From a virus, in the IMG/VR virus record IMGVR_UViG_3300022594_000026, positions 1 through 26,203 of that record: 26,203 bases of DNA. One strand, 5' to 3'. Below, piece by piece: positions 1 to 9,639 of the stretch. The position numbers and the translations under genes were made by a program. Numbering within the stretch: the first letter of the stretch is position 1; every line of letters begins with the position of its first letter. A model generated the notes under the pieces. That model had not been told where the DNA came from. It saw only the letters and a list, made by a program, of their open reading frames with translations, and did no database searches.

Positions 1-28
1 CCTATATATTTTTGTTGTATAGTCGGCC

Positions 29-103
29 CGCGAGGTAGCTCAGTAGAAGAGCGCTGGGCTCATATCCCAGAGGTCAGAGGTGCGACTCCTCTCTTCGCAA
101 CCA
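29..103 (+). tRNA. Initiator-type tRNA-fMet (anticodon CAT)
   Basis: A full cloverleaf can be drawn by hand. The acceptor stem is 29-35 with 93-99, the D stem 38-41/49-52, the anticodon stem 54-58/66-70 with CAT at 61-63, and the T stem 76-80/88-92. The discriminator A is at 100 and CCA is encoded at 101-103. Two hallmarks of bacterial initiator tRNA are visible: an unpaired C1 x A72 at the end of the acceptor stem, and three consecutive G-C pairs (GGG/CCC) next to the anticodon loop. Other positions are unusual. The D-stem pair 11-24 is C-G, as in elongators. The D loop has 7 nt and lacks the G18-G19 pair. The T loop reads TGCGACT, so position 55 is G where U (pseudouridine) is expected. It ends 27 nt before the terS start. 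Initiator identity is well supported; charging and use in the cell are not shown. Confidence 0.88.
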
Positions 104-130
104 TTCCCGTTAACCCGGTGCAAAAGATAC

Positions 131-754
131 ATGATAGAAATTCAGCCTAGCGCAGACAAGCCTCTGCCCTTTGACCTGTCCGATGAGCAACCGAAGACTC
201 ATGCGGATAGCATTGCTATTGCCGCAAACACCGTAGATTTTGTTGAGCGGCTCGGCGGGATGCTCGACTACGACGCCAAAGACTTCCAAGCTGCCGCTGC
301 GCTAGCTACAGGAAAGACAAAACCCAACGTGCCCACAACGGTTTCAAAATCAGGCATGGCAAAGGTTCTCGCAGTTGCGGTTAAGGAATGTGACTTCCAA
401 GTATTTGCCGATGTGCAGCAAGCCCGCAATTTCGTAACAAACAAACTCGTAGCGCTCGCCGACTGCGGAGACCCAAAGCTGGAGCTCAAAGCGTTAGAGC
501 TACTTGGCAAGCACAGCGATATCGGACTTTTTACCGAGCGCTCAGAAATTACTGTGCACCACACAAGCTCCACCTCCCTAGAAAATTCTATTAAAGAACG
601 CGTGAAACGCTTGATGAACGCAGAGATTACGGATGTGATTCCGTTCGACGATCTGGATGCGCATCTGGGCGCAATAGACGAAGGGGAGTTTGAAGAGGAA
701 AAGTTGATTGATACAGATACGGAAGAACCTCCAACAGATTCAACCACTGAGTAA
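131..754 (+). CDS. terS: Terminase small subunit
   Basis: This 207-aa protein is the likely DNA-recognition subunit of the packaging motor, which selects phage DNA and hands it to the large subunit. It has an acidic N-terminus and a helical core. Around residues 115-165 there is a segment rich in ALADCGDPKLELKALELLGK, followed by DIGLFTE and a basic helix (IKERVKRL), a layout typical of small terminases in this kind of phage. The C-terminal 45 residues are very acidic. The ATG at 131 was chosen because an open frame extending upstream to position 80 would overlap the tRNA. No strong ribosome binding site precedes it. It lies 18 bases before terL, which supports the assignment. Confidence 0.78.
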   Translation: MIEIQPSADKPLPFDLSDEQPKTHADSIAIAANTVDFVERLGGMLDYDAKDFQAAAALATGKTKPNVPTTVSKSGMAKVLAVAVKECDFQVFADVQQARNFVTNKLVALADCGDPKLELKALELLGKHSDIGLFTERSEITVHHTSSTSLENSIKERVKRLMNAEITDVIPFDDLDAHLGAIDEGEFEEEKLIDTDTEEPPTDSTTE

Positions 755-772
755 ATTCCCGTAACAAAACAA

Positions 773-2299
773 ATGAACCTCGACGTATCCAAAATGTCCC
801 TAGCGGACGTGCTCAAAGTCCTTCCGAGTCTGTCGGAGTCGGACCAACGGGTGTTGGAGGCTCAGCTTGCCAAGCTCGAAGAGCTCAAGAGTCGGGAGTT
901 GATGCAGGAAAAGTTCATTAAGTTCGTGGAGAGGGTCTGGCCGAGCTTCATTGCTGGTCGGCATCACAAGCGGATGGCCGAAGCGTTCGAGAGAGTGGCA
1001 CGTGGGGAGTGCAAACGGCTGATTATCAACATGCCGCCCCGCCATACGAAGTCAGAATTCGCTTCATACCTGCTCCCTGCGTGGTTTTTGGGCAAATTTC
1101 CGGGCAAAAAAGTGATTCAGACGTCCCACACCGCTGAATTGGCGGTGGGTTTTGGTCGAAAAGTGCGTAACTTGGTAGATACCGAGCAGTATCACGACAT
1201 TTTTCCCGAACTTGGGCTGCAAAGTGACTCAAAAGCGGCTGGTCGGTGGAACACATCCAAGGGTGGTGACTATTTTGCGATTGGTGTGGGCGGTGCAGTG
1301 ACCGGTAAGGGTGCCGACTTGCTCATTATTGACGACCCGCACTCAGAACAAGAGGCTGCGATGGCAGCTACCAACCCCGAAGTTTATGACAAGGTGTATG
1401 AATGGTACACGTCAGGTCCCCGTCAGCGTTTGCAGCCCGGTGGTGCGATTGTGATTGTGATGACGCGCTGGGCTCAGCGTGATTTGACTGGGCAGGTACT
1501 TAAAAATGCAGCATTACGTGGCGAAACCGACTGGGAAGTCATTGAGTTTCCGGCGATCTTGCCCTCTGGCAACCCGCTTTGGCCTGAGTTCTGGAGCATG
1601 GGTGAACTATCAGCGCTCCGAGAAGAATTGCCGAATTCAAAGTGGCAGGCACAGTATCAGCAGAACCCCGTGGGTAATGAGAGCGCGATTGTTAAACGAG
1701 ATTGGTGGCAGTGGTGGGAAGAAGATGAGCCTCCTGAGTGCGAGTACATCCTCCAGACGTGGGACACCGCGTTCGAGAAACATCAGCGTGCCGACTATTC
1801 CGCCGGGACGACTTGGGGCATCTTTACCCACCATAAAGACCAGTCGAAGAACATCATCCTCCTCAACACATATAAGAAGCGTGTGGAGTGGGTGGACTTG
1901 AAGCGTGACGTATTGAAAGAGTACAACATGTTTGAGCCGGATGGTCTGTTGATCGAGAAGAAGGCGACGGGTGCACCCCTCATCTATGAGTTACGAGCGA
2001 TGGGCATACCGGTGATGGAGTACACACCAAGTAAGGGGCAAGACAAAATTGCCCGTTTGAACTCAGTCTCGGACATAATTGCGTCTGGGAAAGTCTGGGT
2101 TCCCAAAACTCGTTGGGCTGAAGAGCTAGTGGACGAGATTGCAGCGTTCCCATCAGGCGAACATGATGACTTGGTTGACGCGACGACACTTGCACTGATG
2201 CGCTTTCGTCAGGGGGGGTTTTTACGTCTGCCATCAGATGAGCCCGAAGATATCAAATGGTTCCGAAGCCGCAATAAAGAGCGGTACTACACAGTGTAA
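773..2299 (+). CDS. terL: Terminase large subunit (packaging ATPase/nuclease)
   Basis: This 508-aa protein is the ATP-driven DNA packaging motor and headful or site nuclease. The ATPase half shows a Walker A-type loop at residues 87-94 (MPPRHTKS), Walker B with catalytic acidic residues at 183-188 (LLIIDD), and a coupling motif around 228-233 (IVMTRW). The RNase H-like nuclease half shows D331 (QTWDTAF), E395 (LLIEKK) and an acidic cluster at 465-469 (HDDLVDA). Length and motif order fit full-length large terminases. The ATG at 773 has no clear Shine-Dalgarno sequence, and an in-frame ATG at 794 is an alternative. The portal gene follows 9 bases later. Confidence 0.96.
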   Translation: MNLDVSKMSLADVLKVLPSLSESDQRVLEAQLAKLEELKSRELMQEKFIKFVERVWPSFIAGRHHKRMAEAFERVARGECKRLIINMPPRHTKSEFASYLLPAWFLGKFPGKKVIQTSHTAELAVGFGRKVRNLVDTEQYHDIFPELGLQSDSKAAGRWNTSKGGDYFAIGVGGAVTGKGADLLIIDDPHSEQEAAMAATNPEVYDKVYEWYTSGPRQRLQPGGAIVIVMTRWAQRDLTGQVLKNAALRGETDWEVIEFPAILPSGNPLWPEFWSMGELSALREELPNSKWQAQYQQNPVGNESAIVKRDWWQWWEEDEPPECEYILQTWDTAFEKHQRADYSAGTTWGIFTHHKDQSKNIILLNTYKKRVEWVDLKRDVLKEYNMFEPDGLLIEKKATGAPLIYELRAMGIPVMEYTPSKGQDKIARLNSVSDIIASGKVWVPKTRWAEELVDEIAAFPSGEHDDLVDATTLALMRFRQGGFLRLPSDEPEDIKWFRSRNKERYYTV

Positions 2300-4798: not shown

Positions 4799-4996
4799 TT
4801 GGATAACAGCCGAGTGCTTGCTTACATCGCCAAGGAGATCGACAAACTCCGTGGCGACCAGAATTCCTTCCTCTCCGGAGGAGGTGCTAAAACGTTTGAC
4901 GAATATCGTCACGTCTGTGGGGTCATCCGAGGTCTGACTCACGCAGAAACCATTGTCAAAGACCTTGTGCAACGAATGGAGCAATCTGATGAGTGA
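4799..4996 (+). CDS. Small protein between portal and co-chaperonin, function unknown
   Basis: This 65-aa protein starts at TTG 4799, 6 bases after a good AAGGAG ribosome binding site (4787-4792) that lies inside the end of the portal gene. Its stop overlaps the start of the next gene by 8 bases (ATGAGTGA), so the two are probably translationally coupled. The sequence looks mostly helical (YIAKEIDKLRGDQ, then THAETIVKDLVQRMEQS), with no membrane segment or known motif that I recognise. Its position suggests a role in head assembly, but this is inference. Confidence 0.7.
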   Translation: MDNSRVLAYIAKEIDKLRGDQNSFLSGGGAKTFDEYRHVCGVIRGLTHAETIVKDLVQRMEQSDE

Positions 4997-5402
4997 ACTT
5001 AATTTAGCGGGTGCAGTGGACCTGTCTGGTCTGTTGAACAAACCTGTTGAGGATAAGGCGAAGCAACTGCCTGAACCCAAGCGTTTTCATGTACTTTGTG
5101 TAGTCCCCGAGGCTATGGAGAAGTACGCCGACAGTGAAATTGGCATCATCAAATCTAGCCAAGCTATGCACTATGAAGAAGTCCTGACTTCCGTATTGTT
5201 TGTAGTGAAACTTGGTCCTGACGCGTATAAAGATGAGACTCGTTTCCCATCCGGTCCGTCATGCAAGGAAGGTGACTTCGTCATCGTTCGCCCCAATTCA
5301 GGCACCCGCCTGAAGATTCATGGCCGTGAATTCCGCATCATCAATGATGACTCGGTTGAAGCAGTTGTGGAAGACCCACGCGGTATTGGCCGTGTTGCTT
5401 AA
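4989..5402 (+). CDS. GroES-like co-chaperonin (Cpn10)
   Basis: This 137-aa protein resembles phage-encoded 10-kDa chaperonins. Residues from about 30 onward form the Cpn10-like beta barrel. A segment starting GIIKSSQAMHYEEVL sits where the GroEL-binding mobile loop belongs. It is followed by VVKLGPDAYKDETRFPSGP, then CKEGDFVIVRPNSGTRLKIHG and a terminal strand with VEAVVEDPRGI. T4 gp31 is the established precedent: a phage co-chaperonin that replaces GroES so the host GroEL can fold the capsid protein. Its place upstream of the scaffold and capsid genes fits that role. ATG 4989 was chosen because it is the conserved-looking start overlapping the previous stop; an ATG 36 bases upstream lies inside the preceding gene. 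Confidence 0.82.
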   Translation: MSELNLAGAVDLSGLLNKPVEDKAKQLPEPKRFHVLCVVPEAMEKYADSEIGIIKSSQAMHYEEVLTSVLFVVKLGPDAYKDETRFPSGPSCKEGDFVIVRPNSGTRLKIHGREFRIINDDSVEAVVEDPRGIGRVA

Positions 5403-8794: not shown

Positions 8795-9175
8795 CTAAGG
8801 GGCTTCGGCCCCTTTTTTCTTTGCTTTTTTGGCTGCTTGCCGTTCATCATGGTGGTGGATACGGTGACAGTTGGCGCACAGAATAACGCACTTCTTGGCT
8901 TCTTCCATAGCAAGGGCGTATTTGCCGTTGCTAACCAAATCGTTTACGGATGCTGTCTTTGTAGCGGGGTCTATGTGGTGAAAATCCAACGTGGCTATGT
9001 GATTAAACCCACATTTTGTGCAGTACAGCGTGGACTTGTACGCCTTCCAGTCCTTGCGCATTGAGGACCGCCTCTCGGAGGACCGTTTCTTTGTCGCTTC
9101 TTTTGTCTTTTGGTAGTGCTTTGCCGAGTACTCTTTAGCCTTGGCTTTGAACACTGCTGGGTCTTTGTAAGGCAT
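8795..9175 (-). CDS. HNH endonuclease (first copy)
   Basis: This 126-aa protein is a probable free-standing HNH nuclease that nicks or cuts DNA. The N-terminal half is extremely basic (Lys/Arg-rich). The C-terminal half has a zinc pair CTKC, the catalytic DFHHIDP, a linker helix, and the closing CVILCANCHRIHHH. The start ATG (9175-9173) overlaps the stop of the GNAT gene as TGATG, so it is translationally coupled to it; a longer reading beginning at 9193 would lie inside the GNAT gene. Such genes in phages are often homing-type mobile genes, though small HNH proteins near terminases can also aid packaging. Here the distance from terL and the opposite strand favour a mobile insertion. Confidence 0.85.
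   Translation of the reverse strand: MPYKDPAVFKAKAKEYSAKHYQKTKEATKKRSSERRSSMRKDWKAYKSTLYCTKCGFNHIATLDFHHIDPATKTASVNDLVSNGKYALAMEEAKKCVILCANCHRIHHHDERQAAKKAKKKGAEAP
8797..8818 (+). terminator. Rho-independent terminator shared with the end of the HNH gene
   Basis: The stem AAGGGGC/GCCCCTT (8797-8803 with 8808-8814) has a UUCG loop and a T-run on the plus strand. It ends the 8539-8790 unit. The same bases encode the last residues of the minus-strand HNH gene, so it also stands between converging genes. The minus-strand side has no T-run. Confidence 0.88.
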
Positions 9176-9603
9176 CAGAGCTTCAGTCTCCAATAAAGCG
9201 TTTTATCTGCGCCCCAAGGTTTTGATGGGTCAAACAACTTGAACCCTCTGGCGATCAAACTGTTAGAAGATGCCGGGTTGTCATGCGTGTCTGTAACCAC
9301 CCAATTCCAACCTAGAGCACGGGCTTGCTGAAGACGAACTCGGATAAGCCTTTTCTGTATTCCTTGTCCACGATGAGCCGGTAACACGCCTGCACGGCAC
9401 AAATAACCGCAATCACTCCAACGCAAGGAGGGAACAAGACCAGCAAAAGCAACCGGAGTGTTGTCCTCAGAATATGTAATCCACCAGTAGCCAGATGTTG
9501 TAGAAGCAGGTTCATCATAGGGTAAGCATTGTTTTTGAAGTTGAGAAAGCGCCAGCTGTGTGTCTGGACGGCTTAAGTCAACACGGTGGATTTTGTAGCG
9601 CAT
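9175..9603 (-). CDS. GNAT-family N-acetyltransferase
   Basis: This 142-aa protein has the GNAT layout. There is an N-terminal strand-helix. A beta pair lies around PVAFAGLVPSLRWSDCGYL. Motif A follows with the acetyl-CoA pyrophosphate loop HRGQGIQKRLI. The C-terminal part contains NPASSNSLIARGFKLF, the usual motif B region. The acceptor substrate cannot be told. ATG 9603 was chosen over an upstream TTG at 9609; the ribosome binding site is weak (GGAAA). It leads a two-gene minus-strand cassette with the HNH gene, in a region otherwise devoted to virion genes, so it looks like an accessory (moron) gene that may modify a host or phage protein or small molecule. Confidence 0.85.
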   Translation of the reverse strand: MRYKIHRVDLSRPDTQLALSQLQKQCLPYDEPASTTSGYWWITYSEDNTPVAFAGLVPSLRWSDCGYLCRAGVLPAHRGQGIQKRLIRVRLQQARALGWNWVVTDTHDNPASSNSLIARGFKLFDPSKPWGADKTLYWRLKL

Positions 9604-9639
9604 GAACAATTATTTTCCAGCAATATGACAAAACCATGC

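Follow-up and report, generated by a model that had tools for sequence, protein, structure and literature searches.

The only tRNA gene of the 26.2-kb virus record analysed here (the window, meaning that whole stretch of DNA), at positions 29-103 on the plus strand, is in our view, with a probability of roughly 70%, a working initiator-type tRNA(CAU) that serves the phage as an exchangeable accessory gene, is expressed late, has its elbow re-paired as A18-G55 and independent of host modification, and carries in U38 a change at a nuclease site. The analysis establishes the gene itself, its initiator determinants, the covariation of positions 18 and 55 across viral tRNAs, U38, and a late-operon slot whose content turns over among relatives. 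Phage tRNAs of the initiator type are already known from T5, with its tRNAfM, and from Sinorhizobium prophages (PMC12429752); what is new here is the combination of the A18-G55 elbow with U38.

The tRNA gene and position 38

ARAGORN calls one tRNA-Met(cat) in the window, at 29-103, and the same segment matches Rfam RF00005 at 60.3 bits (E 6e-11). An identical copy is found in L141, a phage contig that overlaps the window or is nearly identical to it, and it is because of the tRNA model score together with this copy that we take the gene to be real. Its raw folding energy is ordinary (z -0.54) and was uninformative as proof of a real gene. The features discussed below are as follows.

12-28, plus strand: conserved promoter-like element TTGTTGTATAGTCGGCC, ending at the 5' end of the tRNA (20-base exact match in five related viral contigs)
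29-103, plus strand: initiator-type tRNA(CAU) with encoded CCA (ARAGORN; Rfam RF00005, 60.3 bits; classifier, +21.2 bits)
29-35, plus strand: 5' acceptor strand CGCGAGG, with C1 not paired to A72, then G2-C71, C3-G70 and G4-C69 (sequence and structure)
42-48, plus strand: D loop AGTAGAA, with A18 at 45 and G19 at 46 (sequence and 18/55 covariation)
54-70, plus strand: anticodon arm CTGGG-CTCATAT-CCCAG, with GGG/CCC, anticodon CAT at 61-63 and U38 at 65 (sequence)
81-87, plus strand: T loop TGCGACT, with U54 at 81, G55 at 82 and C56 at 83 (sequence and covariation)
93-103, plus strand: 3' acceptor strand CTTCGCA, A73 and CCA (sequence)
104-123, plus strand: conserved leader TTCCCGTTAACCCGGTGCAA, from the slot to the terminase gene (common to L002 and L170, and to L171 with one change)
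131-754, plus strand: probable small terminase subunit gene (open reading frame preceding TerL, conserved in relatives)
773-2299, plus strand: large terminase subunit gene, TerL (phrog_38, E 3e-109)

All the stems of the tRNA are intact. C1 lies at 29 and A72 at 99, the GGG/CCC pairs at 56-58/66-68 and C11-G24 at 39/51; the D arm reads GCTC-AGTAGAA-GAGC, the variable loop AGGTC and the T arm AGAGG-TGCGACT-CCTCT. A preliminary description of this DNA had listed C1xA72, the GGG/CCC stem, the CAT anticodon, G55, a 7-nt D loop and C11-G24, and each of these is present in the sequence. It had also described the D loop as lacking G18-G19, which is half right: set against the common 7-nt loop AGTGGTA, the loop AGTAGAA reads A14 G15 T16 A18 G19 A20 A21, so that G18 is gone but G19 is kept. 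Position 38, which it overlooked, is T (at 65) where the usual base is A.

Enteric VapC toxins cleave tRNAfMet between A38 and C39, and a Leptospira VapC also cleaves tRNAfMet (PMC4105405). The U38 of the window tRNA alters this site and may affect cutting. A complete scan found U38 with the same anticodon arm in 86 viral contigs, and the same arm with A, C or G at position 38 in at least 120, so that U38 accounts for at most about 42%; none of the 116 cellular initiators of the Actinomycetota control has U38, and all 116 have A38. It has been proposed that phage tRNAs bear anticodon-loop changes against host nucleases, and Shigella phages have been reported to avoid encoding tRNA-fMet (PMC10264068). 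The first idea is consistent with our viral counts, and the window tRNA shares with those phage tRNAs a change in the anticodon loop, here at the initiator-specific VapC cut site. Such avoidance is not a general rule among phages; the window phage, unlike the Shigella phages, carries an initiator, and one whose elbow is changed too.

These observations raise an alternative, namely that the main value of the gene is as a decoy or escape copy resistant to VapC-like host nucleases that cut initiator tRNA. U38 falls on the A38/C39 cut (PMC4105405) and is present in those 86 viral contigs and absent from the cellular control, the elbow is non-standard, and phage tRNAs counter tRNA-cutting defences (PMC10264068), rescue of cells from such defences being established for tRNA-Tyr and tRNA-Lys (PMC11555353). 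However, A38 is kept in 54 of the 72 phage CAT tRNAs with G55, and the elbow and U38 are therefore separate changes. We regard this account as a serious possibility, although the odds are somewhat against it.

Initiator identity

The positions that act as formyltransferase and P-site determinants are established knowledge, and by these the tRNA at 29-103 is of the initiator type. Position 1:72 has no Watson-Crick pair (C1xA72); the pairs read by the formyltransferase, 2:71, 3:70 and 4:69, are G-C, C-G and G-C and, with A73, equal those of E. coli metZ; and three G-C pairs (GGG/CCC) stand in the anticodon stem above CAU. Two further bases depart from the pattern: the minor determinant A11-U24 is replaced by C11-G24, and A38, which is usual but not strictly defining for initiators, is replaced by U38. 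With the tRNAfMet genes metZ/W/V of E. coli, the window tRNA thus has in common C1xA72, G2-C71, C3-G70, G4-C69, A73, CCA, GGG/CCC, CAU and the AGGTC variable loop, and it differs from them in C11-G24 for A11-U24, in its 7-nt D loop, in A18-G55 for G18-U55 and in U38 for A38. Formylation and use in initiation are predicted from this set of bases.

For a comparison across the molecule we used a position-by-position profile from which nucleotides 1 and 72 were left out, trained on 87 viral CAT tRNAs with an unpaired 1:72 against 36 with G-C at 1:72. Its leave-one-out accuracy was 117/123. In bits toward the initiator, the window tRNA scored +21.2, metZ +50.5, metT -36.1 and ileX (Ile2) -69.5; since the training labels come from the 1:72 pairing alone and some of the 'elongators' are probably initiators (one scored +43.5), the margin is indicative. 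The initiator identity that the preliminary description had proposed is thereby supported, the formyltransferase and P-site determinants being present and the profile score favouring the initiator over elongator Met and Ile2.

The alternative, that this is a tRNA for elongator Met or for Ile2 (modified to lysidine) and only looks like an initiator, draws on the D arm. The AGCTCAG sequence of that arm and its C11-G24 pair resemble those of elongators, the D-arm positions weigh against the initiator in the classifier, and the whole-molecule score of the window tRNA is 24.5 against both metZ and metT; this tie, which leaves overall identity to E. coli tRNAs without a decision as an identity test, arises because the D arm is elongator-like. 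But an elongator or Ile2 tRNA would have a Watson-Crick pair at 1:72 and an elongator profile as its best match, neither of which is found here; C1xA72, GGG/CCC and the 2:71, 3:70 and 4:69 pairs are initiator marks, and the classifier gives +21.2 as against about -36 for metT and -70 for ileX. C11-G24 itself is shared by 28 of the 72 viral CAT tRNAs that have G55 and by 55 of the 201 that have U55, and is found in 12 of the 29 viral G55 CAT tRNAs that have a GGG anticodon stem. An elongator identity is in our judgement improbable.

The initiator copy had been called uncommon for a phage, which the viral counts contradict: 96 of the 157 distinct viral tRNAs that carry the GGG-CTCATA-CCC arm lack both a Watson-Crick and a G-U pair at 1:72, and T5 has an annotated tRNAfM. 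The T5 gene (AY543070, 32428-32505) is likewise phage-encoded, annotated as an initiator and unpaired at 1:72, but it is part of a large array of tRNA genes, with T1xT72, no GGG/CCC arm and an ordinary G18-U55. Sinorhizobium phiLM21-like prophages, which belong to another phage group, resemble the window phage in having a single tRNA-Met or tRNA-fMet gene (PMC12429752). The unpaired 1:72 combinations in the 157 arm-matched phage tRNAs (L082-L291) include T-T (25), C-A (21), A-C (14), A-A (13) and C-T (11), a diversity that looks as if only the absence of a pair were selected. The phage tRNAs nearest to the window tRNA by sequence (L321, L344, L376, L422 and similar) have C1xA72, with GGA/TCC replacing GGG/CCC.

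The A18-G55 elbow

In the ordinary tRNA elbow U55, the base that becomes pseudouridine (Psi55), is paired with G18, and C56 with G19; of all tRNA modifications Psi55 is said to be the most universally conserved, TruB being the enzyme that converts U55 and TrmH the one that methylates G18 (reviewed in PMC7912444). The window tRNA has A18 with G55 in place of G18 with U55, and keeps G19-C56 and U54-A58 (G46, C83, U81 and A85). The altered contact between the D and T loops that had been remarked on is therefore real, but it is a compensated A18-G55 pair, with G19-C56 kept.

To see what accompanies G55, we looked in viral contigs for CAT tRNAs that combine the GGG/CCC arms with G55, leaving the D loop free. 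The search gave 25 contigs and 22 distinct sequences, of which 21 were readable, and all 21 have A18-G19. A second viral search, also with a free D loop, accepted any tRNA with the AGGTC variable loop and G55, and its list of matches is a lower bound. Among 975 distinct viral tRNAs, a set in which the search for G55 inflates its share but not its association with position 18, 810 have GG at 18-19 with U55, 6 have GG with C55, 19 have other bases with U55, and 130 have AG with G55, a count that shared ancestry inflates, about 30 coming from one phage. No tRNA combines AG with U55, so that A18 is seen only with G55 (130 against 0). The ten further G55 cases, read by eye, comprise four with AG or AGG at 18-19, two with U18, one with a clear G18 and three that could not be parsed. 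The swap is found across many isotypes, and the tRNAs closest in sequence to that of the window lie on contigs without a match to the window proteins tested. Taken together, the covariation, the range of isotypes and the contigs without such a match argue that A18-G55 is a compensatory replacement, and a paired swap that recurs in this way looks like a selected design, not damage.

The decay of a tRNA gene, with the loss of G18 and U55 as damage, would account for changes at two tRNA positions that rank among the best conserved, in a gene that is dispensable in relatives. It is very improbable nonetheless, as both changes occur together in 130 distinct viral tRNAs with zero A18/U55 intermediates, the stems are all intact with CCA encoded, and L141 holds an identical copy.

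Suppressor tRNAs obtained from randomised D and T loops in the Steinberg laboratory, around 2004, reportedly followed the rule that 55 is U where 18 is G and G where 18 is A, the A18-G55 arrangement being called, it is said, a 'specific purine trap'. The phage tRNAs follow the same rule; those suppressors came from laboratory selection, whereas the phage tRNAs are natural and show the swap in excess in the initiator type. Neither A18-G55 nor a 'purine trap' was named in any paper that our own literature search turned up.

In a further count we picked loci by the anticodon arm alone. G55 was present in 7 of 157 distinct initiator-type tRNAs as against 1 of 395 neighbouring viral tRNAs (Fisher p 8e-4); the A18-G55 elbow is thus over-represented in phage tRNAs of the initiator type. 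The cellular controls came from one phylum, Actinomycetota, and E. coli: the initiator pattern in 119 Actinomycetota genomes gave 116 matches, every one with U55 and A38 and none with G55, and a broader G55 pattern matched five places in 396 genomes, none of them an intact tRNA. An A18-G55 tRNA-Met is also carried by phages in culture, among them Campylobacter phage F336 and Brevundimonas phage Gurke; the elbow is ordinary in a Mesorhizobium phage and in the Erythrobacter phages that a converted tRNA-Gly query retrieved.

One uncultured virus, IMGVR_UViG_3300033233_000006 (131 kb; L456, L497-L503), has its tRNAs at about 45.4-53.7 kb, with G55 in 33 of the 34 called by ARAGORN and A18 in nearly all. 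Its swapped tRNAs cover nearly all amino acids and so amount to a whole tRNA set. The virus encodes a Gp23-type (T4-type) capsid protein and a Ro60/TROVE-like protein. When 30 of its larger proteins were compared with Pfam, none matched a known tRNA-modifying or tRNA-cutting enzyme that would explain the swap.

The genomic slot and the probable use of the gene

Upstream of the tRNA, the aligned TTGTTGTATAGTCGGCC block is conserved while the DNA before it diverges. We infer from this conservation that the element at 12-28 may act as a promoter; no sigma-70 consensus promoter was called there. If TATAGT at 18-23 serves as the -10 element, the transcript would begin no more than 1-2 nt from the first base of the tRNA, which lies about 6 nt past TATAGT, and the tRNA would be leaderless, a layout with which the sequence is compatible. 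Downstream, the leader TTCCCGTTAACCCGGTGCAA is kept in relatives regardless of what the slot contains, and the 131-754 reading frame that follows had no family match in profile searches. L141 extends 4.2 kb further upstream, where the longest reading frames run leftward, so that the rightward structural block begins with the tRNA. Elsewhere in the window, a GroES-like co-chaperonin gene (4953-5402; phrog_3188, E 6e-7; a Cpn10 match just under the Pfam cut-off) lies between portal and scaffold-type genes, and the structural block contains on the minus strand a GNAT acetyltransferase (9175-9609, Pfam) and an HNH-like reading frame (8795-9193, recognised by eye, with no Pfam match).

The content of the slot differs among relatives whose TerL is 95-99% identical to that of the window. 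It is tRNA-Asn in L002/L168 and L170 (the L002 copy at 1083-1158), a reading frame followed by tRNA-Asn in L169, and no tRNA in L171, whose TerL is 99% identical; L003, a close relative, is also without a tRNA. Among 80 terminase relatives compared, a tRNA was seen only in L002, within the DNA examined. As the flanks are conserved but the content differs, the slot is an exchangeable site for accessory RNA genes beside a late-type putative promoter, and since L171 and L003 have no tRNA the gene is not essential. That it is instead what remains, at the end of a prophage, of a host tRNA gene used as an attachment site is hardly credible: tRNA genes are common attachment sites and this one lies at a contig edge, but we rejected such an origin on the further reading frames in the 4.2 kb upstream in L141 and on the same place in relatives holding another tRNA or none, and the window proteins scanned included no recognisable integrase.

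The reading that we prefer, a working late initiator, can be laid out as follows. Sitting between the promoter-like element and the small-terminase gene, the tRNA would be transcribed with the late structural genes and processed; its acceptor end and anticodon stem keep the features read by methionyl-tRNA synthetase, the formyltransferase and the ribosomal P site, so that it should be charged with Met, formylated and used in initiation. With G18-U55 changed to A18-G55, and G19-C56 and U54-A58 kept, the L shape should hold, and in the absence of U55 and G18 the molecule should fold and work, without Psi55 or Gm18. The phage would thus be supplied with initiator tRNA late in infection, independently of host modification of the elbow, and the benefit may lie in this supply or in evasion: modification-free folding might be useful when the phage makes much tRNA quickly, or the tRNA might go unnoticed by an enzyme that recognises the standard elbow. 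U38, a change at a known nuclease site, might also spare it from initiator-tRNA nucleases, to which it is perhaps resistant. Both purposes suggested in the preliminary description find a place here, in that added initiation capacity late in infection would fit a gene that opens the rightward structural block, after a promoter-like element, and avoidance of host modification or cleavage is plausible, as G55 cannot become pseudouridine, A18 is not the G that receives the 2'-O-methyl group and U38 alters the VapC site. Counting against the preferred reading are the elongator-like D arm, the relatives without a tRNA and the lack of a recognisable sigma-70 site.

A broader generalization, which we offer tentatively and consider rather doubtful, is that phages re-code the elbow from G18-Psi55 to A18-G55, chiefly in initiator-type tRNAs but in one phage in almost all its tRNAs, so that these neither need nor allow Gm18 and Psi55 and escape host enzymes, or host or phage nucleases, that read the standard elbow. 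The covariation of 18 and 55 across phage tRNAs is the part likely to surprise a specialist, and recurrent natural phage tRNAs that are unable to carry Psi55 and have a compensating D-loop change offer a testable case of modification independence or defence evasion. By the viral counts, initiator-type tRNAs are common in phages, contrary to the impression of avoidance. Because initiator tRNA is a known toxin target, an altered copy supplied by the phage is relevant to the long-standing question of what phages gain from their tRNA genes.
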